A DNA stretch of 51,373 bases from an uncultured Phascolarctobacterium sp. (GTDB lineage Bacteria > Bacillota > Negativicutes > Acidaminococcales > Acidaminococcaceae), in contig CANQBR010000009.1 of the NCBI GenBank assembly GCA_947589605.1, positions 1-51,373 of the forward strand, read 5' to 3'. The position numbers and the translations under genes are program-made. The stretch's first letter is position 1; the number at the start of each line of letters is the position of its first letter. The notes beneath the pieces were generated by a model, which saw only the letters and a list, made by a program, of their open reading frames with translations, had not been told where the DNA came from and did no database searches. Shown here one piece after another: positions 4,339 through 14,321 of the stretch.

Positions 4339-5153
4339 GGGCCCGCACCTCCCTCTTTTTTATCGCAAGTGAGAAGCTCGCAGAGTTCTTCGACGGTGGC
4401 GGCTCTCACGCCCATGCCCGCCGCCACGGCACAAACGCCGGGCTGCCGCAGCCCCCACTGTTCAAGAGGCTGACTGCCGTCGAATAAGGCGGCGGGGCTG
4501 CCGTCGTAGACCAGCCGGCCCGAACTGAGCACCACGGCCCGGCGGGCAAAACGGCGCACCACATCCATATCGTGAGAGATGAGCACTATGGTCACGCCCT
4601 GCTCTCTGTTCAATTTGTCGAGATGAGCCATCATGCCTTCGATCTCCAAAGCATCTTGGCCGTTGGTGATCTCATCCAAGATCAAAGTGCGAGGGCAAAG
4701 AGCCATGGCCGCCGCCACGCCCAGCCTTCTTTTTTGTCCGAAAGAAAGGAGACGGGGATAGGAATCTTTCAGTTCCGTCAGCCCCATGGCCGCCAAAGCT
4801 CCTTCGACTTGCTCTTTCACTTGGGCCTCCGGCAATTTTTTCACCCGCGGCCCGTAGGCCACCTCTTCATAAACGCTGTCGGCCAAAATTTGCAGGTCGG
4901 GGTTTTGAAAAACATACCCGATCTTATCGGCTAAGTCGGCCGGCTCTTTTGAAGCTATATCTTCGCCGTCCACCAAGATCTCGCCGCTGCGGGGATGACA
5001 CAACGCCATGAAGAGACGGCTCAAGGTCGTTTTGCCGCTGCCGTTGTGTCCTAAGAGGGCGACGAATTCTCCGTCGCCTATGGCAAGGTCCATGTCGAAG
5101 ATCACCGGCCTGCCTCGAGTGTAAGCATAGTTCACTTTTCTAGCTTCCAACAT
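4329..5153 (-). CDS. ecfA: ECF transporter ATPase (EcfA-type)
   Basis: Cytosolic ABC ATPase of 274 residues. Walker A GHNGSGKTTL (about 35-44), Q-loop in YVFQNPDLQ, signature LSFGQKRRLG (variant of LSGGQ), Walker B TLILDEITNG, and switch His in LISHDMD. QNPDLQ and EVAYGP are typical of ECF ATPases. A C-terminal extension of about 55 residues follows the ABC domain. The start overlaps the stop of the preceding ATPase gene by 14 bp. It should form a heterodimer with the next-listed ATPase and dock on EcfT. Confidence 0.93.
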   Translation of the reverse strand: MLEARKVNYAYTRGRPVIFDMDLAIGDGEFVALLGHNGSGKTTLSRLFMALCHPRSGEILVDGEDIASKEPADLADKIGYVFQNPDLQILADSVYEEVAYGPRVKKLPEAQVKEQVEGALAAMGLTELKDSYPRLLSFGQKRRLGVAAAMALCPRTLILDEITNGQDALEIEGMMAHLDKLNREQGVTIVLISHDMDVVRRFARRAVVLSSGRLVYDGSPAALFDGSQPLEQWGLRQPGVCAVAAGMGVRAATVEELCELLTCDKKEGGAGPCA

Positions 5154-6027
5154 GGCCCGTGCCCTCCTTTGCTCTCACGCCCCGACGTTTGAGGTCTTCC
5201 ACGGCCTCTTCTTCGCTTCGCCAATTTCCCAATCTCAGGCCCAAACGCTCTTCAAGGCCCAATTTCATCTGCCACAGTGTGGGCAGCAGAGGCCGCAGTT
5301 CTGCATCTTGATAAACAACGGGAGCGGCGGCGTCGAAACTGTCGGCGACCAACAGTTCGCCCTCTTTCAAAGCGATCAGGTCCGTCACGTAGGGCAGCAG
5401 AAAATCCATACGGTGCTCCACTGCTAAGATAGTCGTGCCGAGGCGCCGATGGATGGAGGCCAGCAGACTGTATAAACTTTGCGCACCATCCGGGTCCATA
5501 GCCGAAACAGGCTCATCCAAAACGATGAGCTCGGGCTCCACCGCCAAAGTGGAAGCCAAAAGCAATCTTTGCCGTTGACCGCCGCTCAATTCGTCTAAAC
5601 GATAAGTTTCACGGCCGGGCAAGCCCACCGCTTCCAAAGCCCAGCTTACTCTCTTTTCGACTTCTTCCGGTTTGAAGCCGTGGTTCAAAAGACTGAAGGC
5701 CACTTCTTCACCGGCGGTGAGAGACACCAGCTGGCTCTCGTAATCTTCCATGATGAAGCCCACGTGCATGGCGATGTCGCTGACTCTCTGTCCTTTGGTG
5801 CTTTTTCCCAAAACTTTCACATCGCCGGCATAACGGCCGCCCATATAAAAGGGCACGATGCCGGTGATGGCTCGGCAAAGAGTGGTCTTGCCCGCGCCGC
5901 TGGGGCCTATCAAACAGGTGAAGCTCCCTTTGTCCACCTTCAAGTTGATGTCCCGCAGCACGACCTGCCCGGGCGGGGTAGCCTTGTAAGCAAAATAAAA
6001 TTTTTCGATGGCGATCTGTGCTGTCAC
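5140..6027 (-). CDS. ECF transporter ATPase (EcfA'-type)
   Basis: Second ABC ATPase of the same transporter, 295 residues. Walker A GPSGAGKTTL (about 42-51), signature LSGGQRQRLL, Walker B LIVLDEPVSAMD, and switch His in AVEHRMD. Starts with GTG at 6027 behind AGGAGGG; its start overlaps the stop of the S-component gene by 4 bp. About 65 C-terminal residues follow the ATPase core. With ecfA it supplies the ATP-driven motion that topples the S component. Confidence 0.93.
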   Translation of the reverse strand: MTAQIAIEKFYFAYKATPPGQVVLRDINLKVDKGSFTCLIGPSGAGKTTLCRAITGIVPFYMGGRYAGDVKVLGKSTKGQRVSDIAMHVGFIMEDYESQLVSLTAGEEVAFSLLNHGFKPEEVEKRVSWALEAVGLPGRETYRLDELSGGQRQRLLLASTLAVEPELIVLDEPVSAMDPDGAQSLYSLLASIHRRLGTTILAVEHRMDFLLPYVTDLIALKEGELLVADSFDAAAPVVYQDAELRPLLPTLWQMKLGLEERLGLRLGNWRSEEEAVEDLKRRGVRAKEGTGHVGS

Positions 6028-7524: not shown

Positions 7525-7911
7525 TTATCTTTTTCTGTAAACTGCCAGCTCCACCAAATTGCCGTCGGGATCCCGCACATAGATGCTGTCCATGGGGCCC
7601 AAAGCGCCGTTGCGGGGCACCGGCCCCGCTTCGAGAGGCCAGCCTTTGGCGCAGAGCTCTTCTTTTATTTTCTCTATATCATCATCTTCAACGATCAGGC
7701 AGAGGTCCTGACTGCCCAAAGTGGGTCGCAGGGCCGCCGGCAAAAATTCTCCCGGGCGGCAGTGGATGTTGATCTTTTGTTTGTCCAACAAAAAGGCGCG
7801 GCGGCCGTTTTTCTCCGTCACCTCTAACCCCAAAATGTCGTGATAAAAATGACGGCACTTAGAGTAATCTTCTGTGGTGATCACCAAATGATCCAAGCCT
7901 TTGATTTTCAT
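7525..7911 (-). CDS. VOC (glyoxalase/bleomycin-resistance) family protein
   Basis: Small metalloprotein fold of 128 residues. Begins KGLDHLVITTEDY (first metal-ligand His at about residue 7) and ends SIYVRDPDGNLVELA, the VOC signature with the C-terminal Glu ligand; a central HCRP supplies another candidate His. Resembles the glyoxalase-like 'virulence protein' subgroup. Substrate unknown. Ribosome site GAGGAG upstream; it begins 10 bp after the LCP1 stop and is the last gene of the NUDIX - LCP2 - LCP1 - VOC operon. Confidence 0.9.
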   Translation of the reverse strand: MKIKGLDHLVITTEDYSKCRHFYHDILGLEVTEKNGRRAFLLDKQKINIHCRPGEFLPAALRPTLGSQDLCLIVEDDDIEKIKEELCAKGWPLEAGPVPRNGALGPMDSIYVRDPDGNLVELAVYRKR

Positions 7912-7921
7912 GAAATGCTCC

Positions 7922-9511
7922 TCAATAACGATAGTCCTGTCCTAAAATGACGGTGCCGTCCCAGTTGCCCTCCGGTTTGGCGGCGATAAAGATCTTGTTT
8001 TTGAAAGGGATCTTGCTCAATTTGTAAACTACCGAGCTGCTGCTCGCTACCACACGAGTGTCCGGCAAAGGTGTGTCGCTGCCGCCGTCGATGACGAAGT
8101 AGCCCGCTTTGGCCAATTGAGCGGCGGCGTGAGGAGCAGCTGCCGGGTCGCCGGAGCGATCTATAAGGCGTAAAGTCGTCTGAGAGCGGCTCGCCGGTGA
8201 CTTTTTAGCAGGTGCGGCCAACACTTCTTCTTTGGCGATGGCCGTTTTATTGCTCTTATCGCCTGCCGCCGTCTCGCTTTTTGGGGCGGCCTTTTCTTTT
8301 TCGGCAGTCTCTTTTGCGGCCTTCGCCTCGGCTTTTTTCATTTTTTTGATGGCAGCCGACACTTCTTCCCTTTTGCTCTCTATCTCTTTCTTCTCTTTGC
8401 GCAGTTGTCGGCGGATATTTTTATCCTTAGCCTGTTTGATATCGTCTTCTAATTTTTTCTCTTGCAGCAAAAGCTGCCGCTCTCGCCGAGAAAGCTCTTC
8501 GATCGTCTCCGGGCCGGGCTGCCGCAGCTCTTTCTCTGTCGTTGGGCTGCTCTTTACCTCTTTGTTTTCGCTGCGCTTCGCTTCTCTTTCGTATTCTGCG
8601 GCTAAAAGTTTGGCGGCGGTCACATATTTATCGCTCATCTGCGCGCCCTGCATATCGGCCACCATACGCCGCAACTCGACGATATCCGGCAGCCAGTAGC
8701 TGATCCCTTCGATATATTCGGGAGTGCCCGGCACCGTCGCCATCACCAGCCCCTTTTCTTTCACCATGGCCCGCAGGGCTCGGCCTATCTCCAGCATATC
8801 GCCCATAGAAAGATCGGTCTCGATCATGGTGAACAATTGTTTGCTCAGCCCCGGCAGCCGCAGCAGCAGTTGAGCAGAGTTGATCTTTTCGTAAACGGCC
8901 ATCAAGAAATGCTGCTGACGGCGGATGCGTCCTATGTCCCCGTCTTCGTCTCGATAACGAACGTATTGGATAGCTGCGGCCCCGTTCAAATGCTGACGGC
9001 CCGCCTTCAAGTCGACGGTAAAACCGTCATAAGGGTCGTGGTACTGCATGTCCTTTTCCACGTCGATATCGATGCCGCCGATGGCGTCCACCAGACCGGA
9101 GAAACCTTTGAAGTCCACCGCCACATAATTGTGGATGTGCAGGCCCAGCAATTCTTCTGCCGTCGCCTGAGTGAGTTTTCTGCCGCCGTAAGCGTAAGCA
9201 TGATTGATCTTGTCCCAGCCGTGCTTTTGGATCTTCACCCGCGTGTCGCGAGGGACGCTGAGAAGGGCCACATCTTTTTTGTCGGAATCGAACATCACCA
9301 CGAAGAGAGTATCGCTCCGCCCCGGGTCGTTATCTTCCGGCCGCGGGTCCACCCCCAGCACGACTATATTGCGTTTTACGGCCAAACGTTCCGTCGGTCT
9401 CAGGGCGTCGAGGCTCTCTTGGCCCGAGGGTGCGAAAAAGTCGCTCAAAGCATAGCCCACTGCCAATACTGCCGCTAAGACGACGGCCAAAATACAGAGC
9501 TTATTCTTCAT
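7922..9511 (-). CDS. LCP family cell-wall glycopolymer ligase with LytR_C domain (LCP1)
   Basis: Membrane-anchored LytR-CpsA-Psr protein, 529 residues. N-terminal signal anchor (about 4-25), LCP catalytic domain (about 45-290) with the family motifs GRSDTLFVV, SVPRDTRV, NHAYAYGG, DIGRIRRQQHFL and VPGTPEYI, a long Lys/Glu-rich charged segment (about 310-420, coiled-coil-like), and a C-terminal LytR_C domain (about 440-529). LCP proteins attach undecaprenyl-linked polymers to peptidoglycan or related acceptors outside the membrane. The first 26 codons and 17 bp of leader are identical to the neighbouring paralogue LCP2. Codon use is GC-rich, like the rest of the window. Confidence 0.95.
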   Translation of the reverse strand: MKNKLCILAVVLAAVLAVGYALSDFFAPSGQESLDALRPTERLAVKRNIVVLGVDPRPEDNDPGRSDTLFVVMFDSDKKDVALLSVPRDTRVKIQKHGWDKINHAYAYGGRKLTQATAEELLGLHIHNYVAVDFKGFSGLVDAIGGIDIDVEKDMQYHDPYDGFTVDLKAGRQHLNGAAAIQYVRYRDEDGDIGRIRRQQHFLMAVYEKINSAQLLLRLPGLSKQLFTMIETDLSMGDMLEIGRALRAMVKEKGLVMATVPGTPEYIEGISYWLPDIVELRRMVADMQGAQMSDKYVTAAKLLAAEYEREAKRSENKEVKSSPTTEKELRQPGPETIEELSRRERQLLLQEKKLEDDIKQAKDKNIRRQLRKEKKEIESKREEVSAAIKKMKKAEAKAAKETAEKEKAAPKSETAAGDKSNKTAIAKEEVLAAPAKKSPASRSQTTLRLIDRSGDPAAAPHAAAQLAKAGYFVIDGGSDTPLPDTRVVASSSSVVYKLSKIPFKNKIFIAAKPEGNWDGTVILGQDYRY

Positions 9512-9528
9512 GCTTCTCTCTCATTTCT
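9434..9528 (-). repeat. Direct repeat copy 1 (95 bp, exact)
   Basis: Perfectly identical to 10876-10970. It covers 17 bp of leader with the ribosome site, the start codon and codons 1-26 of LCP1. Identity stops abruptly at both ends. Confidence 0.97.
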
Positions 9529-9636
9529 TGCAAAAGCCACTAATAGGAGTTTATTTACTTAATGTACTGCAGACCTACTGTTTGCTTCCATCTCTGTATC
9601 CAGTAGAGGGAGATAGCTACATACAGTTCTCGATCC

Positions 9637-10953
9637 TTACCCTGCTTTGTCCAACTGAGCGGTTGTTGGTGGCTTGCCGTTCTGCTTTTTCTCATAGTCG
9701 TTTCCTTGCTTTTTTTGCATATCCATCTTACGTTTCTTCACTGCCTTCTTTGTCGTTTTTTCATTTGCCTTTTTGAACCCTTTATATTTAGAAGAGTGTG
9801 CTTTGTCTTTCTTCTCTGCTGTTTTTTCCTTTTTATGCAACTGCCGTATCACCTCCGCTTTTTTTGTCTTTTTTATATCTTCCTTTAGCTCTTTCTTTTG
9901 CTCAGGGGCCCGCTTTTCCCTATTAATTGAAGCTTTGATGCTTTTACTTTGGTAAGAAGTCAAAGGCTTCTTAGACTTTAAATCAGCATCTTCGATTGCA
10001 ACCTTTTTGCCCTGCTCCGTTCCGCTTTGGTACTTTGCAGTTAAAACCTTGTCGGCAGTTGCATATTCATCGCTCACCTGAGCGCCCTGCATATCATCAA
10101 CCAAGTGGCGCAAATCAGTAACATCCGGCAACCAATAACTAACACCCTCAATGTATTCAGGAGTACCCGGCACTGTGGCCAGCAACAACTTTTTCTCCTG
10201 CATCATAACCAGCAAAGTCCGGCCCAATTCCACCATATCGCTCAACGATAGGTCTGTCTCGATCATAGTGAACAGTTGCTTGCTTAGTCCCGGTAGTTGC
10301 AACAGAAGTTGGGGAGAGTTCATCTTTTCGTAGGCGGCCAGTAAAAAATGCTGCTGTCGACGAATACGTCCTATATCTCCGTCCCTGCCGCGGTATCGCA
10401 CATACCTAAGGGCAGCAGCTCCGTTAAGGTGTTGTATTCCTGGCTTCAATTTTAAATTAAAAGTAGCATAGGGGTCGCGGTAGAACAATTCCTTTTCTAT
10501 TTCTATATCTACCCCTCCGATGGCATCTACCAGTCCTGCGAAACCTTTGAAGTCCACTACCACATAATTATGGAGTTTTAACTTCAACAGTTCTTCCGCC
10601 GTCTTCTTGGTTAACGCCGCACCTCCAAGAGAGTAGGCATGGTTGATTTTGTCCCAACCGTGGTTGTCTATCCACACTCTGGTATCACGAGGTACGTTTA
10701 ATATGGGCACATTCTTTTTTTTAGGATCTAGCATTACTACAAAAATAGTGTCGCTCCGCCCTGCATCAAATTTTTTCGGTCGCAAGTCCACCCCTAAGAC
10801 TACGATATTTTGTTTTATTGACAGTTGCTCTATAGAGCTCGCATCGTCAGAGTGCTTCTCTGCAGCTTTTGGAAGGAAAAAGTCGCTCAAAGCATAGCCC
10901 ACTGCCAATACTGCCGCTAAGACGACGGCCAAAATACAGAGCTTATTCTTCAT
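9637..10953 (-). CDS. LCP family protein, paralogue lacking LytR_C (LCP2)
   Basis: 438 residues: the same signal anchor as LCP1 (26 identical residues), LCP domain with GRSDTIFVV, NVPRDTRV, DGDIGRIRRQQHFL and VPGTPEYI, all catalytic-region motifs retained, then a very Lys-rich tail. The tail ends in TTAQLDKAG followed at once by a stop, exactly where LCP1 continues (AAAQLAKAG) into its LytR_C domain, so the C-terminal domain has been lost. The body is clearly AT-richer and uses different codons from LCP1, yet the first 95 bp match perfectly. This suggests that the body was acquired or diverged separately. Probably functional as a ligase, since the LCP domain is intact. Followed by 125 bp before LCP1, in which I see no terminator. 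Confidence 0.93.
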   Translation of the reverse strand: MKNKLCILAVVLAAVLAVGYALSDFFLPKAAEKHSDDASSIEQLSIKQNIVVLGVDLRPKKFDAGRSDTIFVVMLDPKKKNVPILNVPRDTRVWIDNHGWDKINHAYSLGGAALTKKTAEELLKLKLHNYVVVDFKGFAGLVDAIGGVDIEIEKELFYRDPYATFNLKLKPGIQHLNGAAALRYVRYRGRDGDIGRIRRQQHFLLAAYEKMNSPQLLLQLPGLSKQLFTMIETDLSLSDMVELGRTLLVMMQEKKLLLATVPGTPEYIEGVSYWLPDVTDLRHLVDDMQGAQVSDEYATADKVLTAKYQSGTEQGKKVAIEDADLKSKKPLTSYQSKSIKASINREKRAPEQKKELKEDIKKTKKAEVIRQLHKKEKTAEKKDKAHSSKYKGFKKANEKTTKKAVKKRKMDMQKKQGNDYEKKQNGKPPTTAQLDKAG

Positions 10954-10970
10954 GCTTCTCTCTCATTTCT
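10876..10970 (-). repeat. Direct repeat copy 2 (95 bp, exact)
   Basis: Same 95 bp as 9434-9528, at the 5' end of LCP2, 1442 bp away. Recombination between the copies would delete LCP2 cleanly and leave NUDIX - LCP1. Confidence 0.97.
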
Positions 10971-10971
10971 C

Positions 10972-11619
10972 TTAAATATTCGCGAGCAGCTCGCGATGAG
11001 TGCGGAGAAAACTGCAGAGGATGCGGGCCGTCATGCCCCAGATCACTCGTTCTTCGTATAGGTAGAAATAAACCGTATAGTCTTTGCGACGGCGCCAGTT
11101 GCGCTGCCGCTCCGGCACCAAATGAAAGGGAAAGTCCGGTCTCGGTCTGTCGGCCAGCTCTGCCGTCGCCGTCAACGGCTCCGTCTTCAGGAAGAAACTC
11201 AGGGGCACGGTGAAGACTTCTTCCACCTCCGCCGCACTGAAACCGATCTTCTTCGGTTCTTCGATCGCTCCCAAAAAAGGATGGATGATGGGCCCGGAAT
11301 AGGTCACCAAAGTAGACAGCTCACCCAGCACGGTTATGTCCGTCGGTGTCAGCCCCAACTCTTCGCAGCACTCCCGCACCGCCGTCTGCCGAAAATCTTT
11401 GTCGGTGCACTCCGCCTTGCCGCCGGGGAAACAAATTTCTCCCGGCTGACGCTTCAATTTTTTAGAGCGCACTTCAAAAAGCAGGGCGACGCCCTCTTTT
11501 GTCGGCACCAGCGGCAGCAACACAGCCGCGTCCCACAGGCCGTCCGTTTTGTCTATCTCCGCCGGCTTGAGGCTCAAGCTCGCCGCAAGGCGAGAGCTCA
11601 ATTCTTCCAACTTTTTCAT
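10972..11619 (-). CDS. NUDIX hydrolase, CoA pyrophosphatase type
   Basis: 215 residues. The Nudix box is visible as GGKAECTDKDF..AVRECCEELGL (about 66-88; GxxxxxE and REccEELG). Upstream it has the additional CoA-pyrophosphatase signature LLPLVPT...LKRQPGEICFPGG. Such enzymes split CoA or its derivatives to phosphopantetheine and ADP. First gene of the operon with the two LCP genes and the VOC gene; the reason for that linkage is not evident. Start ATG has an AAGGGG ribosome site. Confidence 0.92.
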   Translation of the reverse strand: MKKLEELSSRLAASLSLKPAEIDKTDGLWDAAVLLPLVPTKEGVALLFEVRSKKLKRQPGEICFPGGKAECTDKDFRQTAVRECCEELGLTPTDITVLGELSTLVTYSGPIIHPFLGAIEEPKKIGFSAAEVEEVFTVPLSFFLKTEPLTATAELADRPRPDFPFHLVPERQRNWRRRKDYTVYFYLYEERVIWGMTARILCSFLRTHRELLANI

Positions 11620-11646: not shown

Positions 11647-11674
11647 ATTATAACCTTTCTTCGCCGCCTGTGAA
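11647..11674 (-). promoter_or_regulatory. Promoter of the NUDIX-LCP2-LCP1-VOC operon
   Basis: Minus strand TTCACA (11669-11674), 16-bp spacer, perfect TATAAT (11647-11652), about 28 bp before the NUDIX start. Confidence 0.65.
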
Positions 11675-12551: not shown

Positions 12552-14321
12552 TCATCTTCTGTGATGACCGCCGTGACTTCCTCTTATGCGATCGTTATCG
12601 AAGTTCGAAGGCTCGTGATGCCTGCTGATCGTCGAACTTCTCGCAGGAGCTCTCTGCACCGAAGGTCGGGGAGCGCCGGATCTTGACTGACTCACACGGG
12701 GCCTGCTCGTATTTTGGGCAGGGACGCTGACACGGGGAGCGCTGCCGCTTGCTGAACGGCGAAAAGTCGCACTGCTCTGTGTAGGCCGACTGACTGCCGG
12801 AGCCGATCTCTTCATCGTCGCCTGTCGTGTGCTCATCGTCGGCCGTTGGACCGAAGGCCGAGAGCTTGCGGCTGCGGGACGACGAAACGTTGAGCTCGTC
12901 GTGCCCGACGTCGGTCGTTGAGCCGAAGGCCGAGAGTTTGCGGCTGCGGGACGACGAAACGTTGAGCTTGTCGAGCTCGACGTCGGTCTCCTCACGATCG
13001 GTGTGGTCTTGTTGCCCGTCGATCGCTGTGCTGTAGGAGCAGAAGTCACTGCCGCCGGCTTAGAGGCTATCGCTGCAGAGTTGCCTCCCACAGGCAAAGG
13101 CATCGTGCTGACAGAGCCGTTGCTCTTAGGTGCGGCGGTTTTGTTTCCTCTTACGATCTCGGTGGCCGGTGCCTTTGCGCCCGGGCGTTTTGCTATCGCC
13201 GGTCCCTTCCAACCGTCGGGCAAAAGCACCTGAGGTGCAGAAGCACCTTTCTTCGCTTCGGGGGCAGGAGCGACGGTATTTTTCCCCGCCTTGGGCAACG
13301 ACGGCACATTGATCTTCGGTGCCGGTGCAGAACTTAAATGGGGAGCCCCTGCTGCCCCGCCCCGTGCCAAATTGGGCAACATCACCGCTCCCTTTGCATC
13401 GGGAGGTGGCTGTGCCGGCCCCGGCCCTACATCGCTGCCGGGAGGCGGAGGAGGAGCACCGCCGGGCACAGAGCCCGGATGATGGGCCGGCGGAGGAGGA
13501 GGCGGCATATGGCCGGGCCGCCAGCCGCCGGGAGGCGGCAAAGGAGCATGATGAAAATGATGAGGCCAGCAGAAATTCATATAGAACCAATACGGTCTCT
13601 CCCAATAGCAATAGCGATAATAATGATCGTGCCCGCTGTAATGAACAGTCCTCGTCTTATCGGCTTCGATGGCGGCGCTCAGTTCTTTATCCAAAGCCTT
13701 CAGCTCTTCGTTGCCCGAGTCGTATTGTAAGCCCTTAGTGGCATAAGCCTTGGCCTTATAGATCGAGCCCTTGTTTCTTTCGGCCAAAGCCAATTCCAAA
13801 CACATCAGGGCCCGCACAGAATTCAGGTCGCCGTCGGAATTGATGCCCGGGAAAAGTTTCAGGCCCGCTTCGTATTCCGAGGCCCAATAGTAAACGGAAG
13901 CGATCTCTGCCGGGGAGCCGGTGACCTGCTTTTTGTGGCTCTTGTAATATTTTACGCTCTCTTTGGCCGTGGCCCTGAGCTTGCCCATGTCCTCTTCTTC
14001 CGTATATATAGAGAGGAGCAGAGTTAAAGTGGGCCAGTCCTTGTCGTATTGCAGAGCTTTTTCCAAATAAAGGGCGGCTTGCTCGTTGTTTCCCTCTTGG
14101 TGTTCTAAATAACCGCGCCAATAATAGCCTTCGCCCTTTTTGGGATATTTGGCGATATAAGCATCGATCTTAGAGAGAGCGGCCCCCCTGTCTTCTTGGA
14201 TCAAAGCCGTCGCCGCAGCCCGATCTTTAAAAAGAGAGGGCGTTTTGGCCTCCGTCATTCCCGGCGCCTGCGCCAAGATGAACACGGCGACCGCCGCCGC
14301 TACCCATCTGCCTTTCAGCAT
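12552..14321 (-). CDS. Exported TPR protein with Pro/His-rich and Arg/Ser-repeat tail
   Basis: About 589 residues. Signal peptide (1-25, cleavage near MTEA), then a TPR-like helical region (about 35-225; YYWRGYLEHQEGNNEQAALYLEKAL is replaced here by its key Trp/Gly/Ala pattern near residues 65-90), then a Tyr/His/Trp-rich segment (about 230-260), a Pro/Gly/His-rich segment with runs of five to six Pro (about 260-310), and a basic low-complexity C-terminal 200 residues built of FRRPAA..SRPS.QRPT units of 24 codons. Start: the ATG at 14321 follows AAGGAAGGTGGGG and is better placed than the one at 14339. Location is probably periplasmic or surface; function unknown. Lies 64 bp after the SIMPL-domain gene. 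Confidence 0.85.
   Translation of the reverse strand: MLKGRWVAAAVAVFILAQAPGMTEAKTPSLFKDRAAATALIQEDRGAALSKIDAYIAKYPKKGEGYYWRGYLEHQEGNNEQAALYLEKALQYDKDWPTLTLLLSIYTEEEDMGKLRATAKESVKYYKSHKKQVTGSPAEIASVYYWASEYEAGLKLFPGINSDGDLNSVRALMCLELALAERNKGSIYKAKAYATKGLQYDSGNEELKALDKELSAAIEADKTRTVHYSGHDHYYRYCYWERPYWFYMNFCWPHHFHHAPLPPPGGWRPGHMPPPPPPAHHPGSVPGGAPPPPPGSDVGPGPAQPPPDAKGAVMLPNLARGGAAGAPHLSSAPAPKINVPSLPKAGKNTVAPAPEAKKGASAPQVLLPDGWKGPAIAKRPGAKAPATEIVRGNKTAAPKSNGSVSTMPLPVGGNSAAIASKPAAVTSAPTAQRSTGNKTTPIVRRPTSSSTSSTFRRPAAANSRPSAQRPTSGTTSSTFRRPAAASSRPSVQRPTMSTRQATMKRSAPAVSRPTQSSATFRRSASGSAPRVSVPAQNTSRPRVSQSRSGAPRPSVQRAPARSSTISRHHEPSNFDNDRIRGSHGGHHRR
12851..12994 (-). repeat. Two tandem 72-bp coding repeats
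   Basis: Near-identical 72-bp units begin at 12851 and 12923, each encoding a 24-residue Arg/Pro/Ser/Thr unit (..TSSTFRRPAA.SRPS.Q). They are in frame, so copy number could change without disrupting the protein. Confidence 0.75.

Follow-up and report, generated by a model that had tools for sequence, protein, structure and literature searches.

Two adjoining genes for LytR-CpsA-Psr (LCP) family proteins in an uncultured Phascolarctobacterium sp. share a 95-bp stretch at their 5' ends that is identical within each of two species and differs between them. The pattern is very probably the product of local concerted evolution, in which gene conversion followed an old tandem duplication and the converted island was confined by divergence on both sides. 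The locus lies on a stretch of DNA of 51,373 nucleotides (contig CANQBR010000009.1 of assembly GCA_947589605.1), referred to here as the window. The host is presumably a diderm, a relative of Phascolarctobacterium.

The 95-bp repeat and its locus

The run NUDIX-LCP2-LCP1-glyoxalase has the layout of an operon, with all four genes on the minus strand and separated by short gaps (Table 1). Because both LCP genes are read from the minus strand, LCP2 is the upstream copy. The genome has a third, distant LCP gene in a nadD-yqeK-LCP-rsfS run (gene names read from the translations); this gene is without the 95-bp repeat, and the search of the 1.76-Mb genome yielded the two copies of the repeat and no others.

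Table 1 Features of the NUDIX-LCP2-LCP1 locus (window coordinates).
Feature	Position	Strand	Evidence or remark
Glyoxalase-family gene, 10 bp past LCP1	7525..7911	-	PF00903
LCP1, LytR-CpsA-Psr family, 529 aa, C-terminal LytR_C-like domain	7922..9511	-	PF03816 1e-45; orthologue of the family's single gene
Repeat, LCP1 copy	9434..9528	-	17-bp leader with ribosome-binding site and LCP1 codons 1-26 (membrane anchor); identical to 10876-10970
Spacer of 108 bp past the LCP2 stop, probable decayed LytR_C coding remnant	9529..9636	-	Co-linear alignment to LCP1 3' end
LCP2, LCP paralogue, 438 aa, Lys-rich tail, without LytR_C	9637..10953	-	PF03816 2.3e-42
Repeat, LCP2 copy	10876..10970	-	Same leader and LCP2 codons 1-26; begins 1 base past the NUDIX stop codon
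NUDIX hydrolase gene, CoA-pyrophosphatase-like, first of the run	10972..11619	-	PF00293; conserved neighbour on the upstream side of LCP
Sigma-70-like promoter, TTCACA-16-TATAAT, candidate operon promoter upstream of NUDIX	11647..11674	-	Consensus scan 11/12; count of such sites in the region not above chance

The original prediction described a perfect 95-bp repeat made up of a 17-bp leader and codons 1-26, with abrupt ends. The measurements agree on every point: the copies match at 95/95 positions, lie 1,442 bp apart and contain 78 bp of coding sequence after the leader. On the coding (minus) strand each copy opens with 17 leader bases, among them a purine-rich ribosome-binding site, and continues with the 26 codons of the membrane anchor, MKNKLCILAVVLAAVLAVGYALSDFF. 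Inspection of the flanks shows both edges to be sharp. Upstream, the LCP2 copy is flanked by the NUDIX stop codon, one base off, and the LCP1 copy by the spacer past LCP2; downstream of both copies lie diverged linkers.

Aligned over 1,455 columns, repeat included, LCP1 and LCP2 are 64% identical, rising to 72-73% in the best-conserved block, and the protein identity that had been put by eye at roughly 70 percent measures 69% in the LCP core. The second-longest identical run in this alignment is 18 bp, as against 95, and the maxima reached on permuting its columns were 39 and 36 (10,000 permutations, none above 39). At the divergence measured beyond the repeat, 26 codons would be free of any difference with a probability of ~4e-16. 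The repeat is a real observation and not a product of chance. The pS between the two genes is 0.75 outside the repeat, near saturation, and 0 inside it. Codons 1-26 belong to the fast-evolving part of LCP1 across genera, with 15-38% identity to the orthologues of other genera compared with about 70% for the LCP core, so protein conservation cannot account for a 100% match of the DNA.

Selection on the DNA or RNA sequence itself, acting on a regulatory element, could in principle hold 95 bp identical without conversion, and the repeat does include the ribosome-binding leader. Such an explanation is hardly tenable, as the repeat changes between species and does so alike in both copies. Moreover, an Rfam search with the repeat returned no match, its predicted folding is not unusual (z = -1.2), and folding the repeat and the spacer as RNA gave no significant result.

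Two further features of the window were recorded. In an ABC-transporter ATPase gene, a short block (window 5140-5539) is ~20% diverged from the sister species where its surroundings show roughly 5%, and is likely a recombination patch. Within the gene of a 595-aa Pro/Ser/Arg-rich protein, whose length is unlike that of its sister-species counterpart, two adjoining 72-nt direct repeats (window 12829-12972) are 89% identical.

Comparison with the sister species

The genus has one other genome, a metagenome-assembled genome (MAG) from rabbit gut labelled uncultured Phascolarctobacterium, the rabbit origin being read from the isolate name Lapin. A contig search for further strains with the locus returned this sister species only, and viral contigs gave none. 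In the sister these four genes are arranged identically, with about 94-95% DNA identity at the locus. There, too, the two 5' ends match each other throughout the 95 bases, with unchanged boundaries. Relative to the present genome, both carry G in place of A at repeat position 15, in the leader, and C in place of A at position 84, which turns codon 23 from Ser to Arg. Copies within a genome differ at 0 sites and copies between genomes at 2, in both copies, which is the relationship expected of concerted evolution.

Site patterns among the four sequences separate the repeat from the rest of the genes. In the repeat, 2 sites group the copies by species and 0 by gene; in the body beyond it, 454 group by gene and 2 by species. 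The proportion of interspecies-variable sites that group by species is 2/2 in the repeat versus about 2/101 in the body (p of about 0.001). This empirical comparison was used in place of a naive probability of coincident changes, 2.5e-5, which was set aside because parallel sites do arise in the body. The original prediction had called for a look at another strain and for separate treatment of the LCP domain and the 5' end. The sister does carry both genes, and their divergence is not equal over the whole length, the body grouping by gene and the homogenised repeat by species; for the repeat, the grouping comes from site patterns.

Unique flanking sequence begins 14 bp from one informative site and 11 bp from the other, distances that even short reads or k-mers span, and both sites are thereby phased. 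Together, the paired species-specific changes and this phasing call for at least one conversion since the species split, on the basis of two informative sites in two genomes, both MAGs. The suggestion that the signal-anchor region underwent gene conversion is thereby supported, and, judged by sequence comparison, the 95-bp island has been homogenised at least once after the two species parted. We consider it very improbable that the assemblies merely collapsed two 5' ends into one sequence. Both genomes do seem to come from metagenome assembly (the sister being titled a MAG and the present genome consisting of 60 contigs at 89% completeness), and a 95-bp repeat exceeds common k-mer sizes. However, two separate assemblies contain the same pair with the same boundaries and different alleles, and short reads reach from the informative sites into the unique flanks.

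The duplication itself predates the species split, as the core identity is 69% between paralogues versus 99% between orthologues and the gene order is the same in both species. The interspecies divergence of LCP2 is unexpectedly low for a fast-evolving paralogue. LCP2 has a core dS of 0.05, compared with 0.21 in LCP1 (Fisher p = 4e-5) and 0.27 in NUDIX, and the LCP2 body at window 10040-10639 has just 5 mismatches in 600 positions between the species. This counts against a simple conversion model, which omits interspecies exchange, and suggests that the LCP2 body was exchanged between the two species, or with a third, an event that would explain the low dS.

Origin and state of LCP2

An LCP match is present in 58/59 genomes of the family, in some as a distant paralogue only. 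The 28 loci examined in other genera have one LCP gene each, with NUDIX adjoining it in 26/28; the LCP gene that follows NUDIX in these genera usually carries a LytR_C tail. In an IQ-TREE phylogeny, which had been proposed for the LCP domain and included ten other genera, LCP2 attaches to the LCP1 branch, and the separation of LCP1 and LCP2 from the rest has 100% support. The LCP2 branch (0.45) is about six times longer than that of LCP1 (0.07). The stop codon of LCP2 (TAA) corresponds to a Tyr codon of LCP1 within its LytR_C-like domain, and the 108 bases past this stop align in register with the LCP1 domain; 0/2000 dinucleotide shuffles scored as high in either species, by a small margin. 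The spacer is thus probably a decayed LytR_C remnant. Given the single LCP gene of other genera, the branching of LCP2 with LCP1 and the probable LytR_C remnant past the LCP2 stop, an old tandem duplication followed by loss of LytR_C is the most likely origin of LCP2, rather than a foreign insertion.

The latter origin was one of the two readings in the original prediction: a foreign LCP2 body, coming from an AT-richer relative, would have been inserted beside LCP1 and joined to a copied LCP1 leader and anchor. The claim that LCP2 is AT-richer is borne out by a GC content of 44.3%, as against 54.6% in LCP1 and 54.8% across the window. Among the 42 ORFs of the window, which supplied the codon and GC background, only one has a lower GC3 (the ORF list is mechanical and may hold a few false ORFs). 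The interspecies dS of LCP2, far below that of LCP1, also suggests movement between lineages. Nevertheless, insertion of a foreign body is unlikely and not supported. LCP2 occupies the conserved NUDIX-LCP site and groups with LCP1, away from the ten other genera in the tree, the 63 genomes of the order contain no donor closer than LCP1, and the probable LytR_C remnant lies past its stop. Relaxed constraint also raises A+T and could underlie the base composition. Some exchange of LCP2 with an unsampled relative is possible, given the AT-richness and low interspecies dS.

LCP2 is intact in both species. In the core its omega is about 0.16 and that of LCP1 0.015; beyond codon 26 the values are 0.21 for LCP2 and 0.085 for LCP1. 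These values indicate a gene under purifying selection and less constrained than LCP1. The product is an LCP-domain protein by its TIGR00350 match (3.1e-40) as well as its Pfam match, and it keeps 95/106 near-invariant columns of the family. The Arg/Asp/Gln motifs GRSDT, PRDT, RYR and GRIRRQQ are retained, also in an alignment with TagV, and the departures comprise D167K together with D188G and E189R in the loop after RYR (LCP1 numbering). It is fair to regard LCP2 as a predicted active LCP enzyme with altered specificity, which may have taken on a changed substrate or a regulatory role.

The LytR_C-like domain of LCP1 scores 18.0 bits against PF13399, below the Pfam cut-off of 22.2; the g18 orthologue L012 passes it at 24.1. 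The LCP orthologues of g17 (L032, L034-L039) are about 300-318 aa long and lack LytR_C. Loss of this domain is therefore not unique to LCP2, since several g17 members are also without it.

Probable conversion within an island and related systems

In the sequence of events that we favor, the ancestral arrangement would have been a NUDIX-LCP(LytR_C) operon, in which the LCP gene was tandemly duplicated before the two known species of the genus split. The downstream copy, LCP1, would have stayed conserved. The upstream copy, LCP2, would have evolved fast, losing LytR_C to a premature stop and becoming richer in A+T. Homologous recombination presumably went on between the two genes, confined to the 95-bp 5' island, with unrelated sequence upstream and the diverged linker downstream as its edges. 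We infer both the recombination mechanism and a role of heterology in setting these boundaries: the left flank offers no homology and the right one has diverged too far, which would hold recombination to the island. Repeated gene conversion would transfer changes between the genes inside the island, so that LCP1 and LCP2 share a leader and membrane anchor despite their different outer domains. As duplicates diverge, conversion would be expected to retreat to such islands. Minimal RecA substrates are about 23-27 bp for RecBC and 44-90 bp for RecF, as cited in PMC12074656, and 95 bp satisfies these lengths.

The same repeats make a precise loss of LCP2 (1,442 bp) possible, in which the original prediction saw a possible on/off switch. 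In a fuller form of such a recombination switch, LCP2 would be precisely deleted and regained by exchange, varying surface-polymer attachment in the population. The perfect direct repeats exceed the minimal RecA substrate, the deletion would leave an intact NUDIX-LCP1 run, and there is a reported analogue: in Salmonella Typhimurium, wzy is reversibly excised between 113-bp direct repeats, and the deletion can rise in frequency under phage (PMC12074656). The two systems have in common perfect direct repeats of about 100 bp around an envelope-polymer gene. They differ in that deletion and recovery were observed for wzy and neither was observed here, where the repeats are parts of paralogous genes. 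An on/off switch is speculation because both genomes keep LCP2, and we judge it quite improbable: LCP2 is unbroken and subject to purifying selection, there is no known deletion junction, neither of the two assemblies shows its loss, and any such repeat permits deletion without selection for it. It is similarly doubtful that the island is maintained because recombination is useful, with LCP2 reversibly lost and regained via the two anchors to vary the wall-attached polymer.

Conversion confined to an island finds its closest described case in mtrA-1/mtrA-2 of methanogens, with the pattern reversed here. These genes have undergone long-lasting concerted evolution and are likewise same-operon paralogues in which one segment is homogenised per species by recurrent conversion and another differs (PMC4632066). 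In methanogens, homogenisation affects the soluble MtrA domain and spares the membrane segment, whereas here it affects only the leader and anchor, and it is the catalytic domain that has diverged. At 95 bp, the present tract is also far shorter, and two sister species give it a shallower time depth. A genome survey found long-lasting concerted evolution in prokaryotes to be rare but recurrent (PMC6053082). The surveyed pairs are paralogues closer to each other than to their orthologues, a relation that holds here for 95 bp only and not for the whole gene. Literature searches on conversion confined to signal-peptide regions, and on LCP, including the LCP substrate, in Negativicutes, found no paper. 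The described LCP glycopolymer transferases TagT/U/V, Cps2A and LytR (PMC7831098) share with the present proteins an N-terminal anchor, an LCP domain with conserved Arg/Asp and several paralogues per genome; LCP2 differs from them in having lost LytR_C.

The locus adds a small new case to a known process, gene conversion and concerted evolution. It offers a compact natural example in which conversion would have shrunk to a short island as the duplicates diverged, with tract edges common to two species. An LCP gene that has gained a partner without LytR_C may also be useful for asking what LytR_C does.
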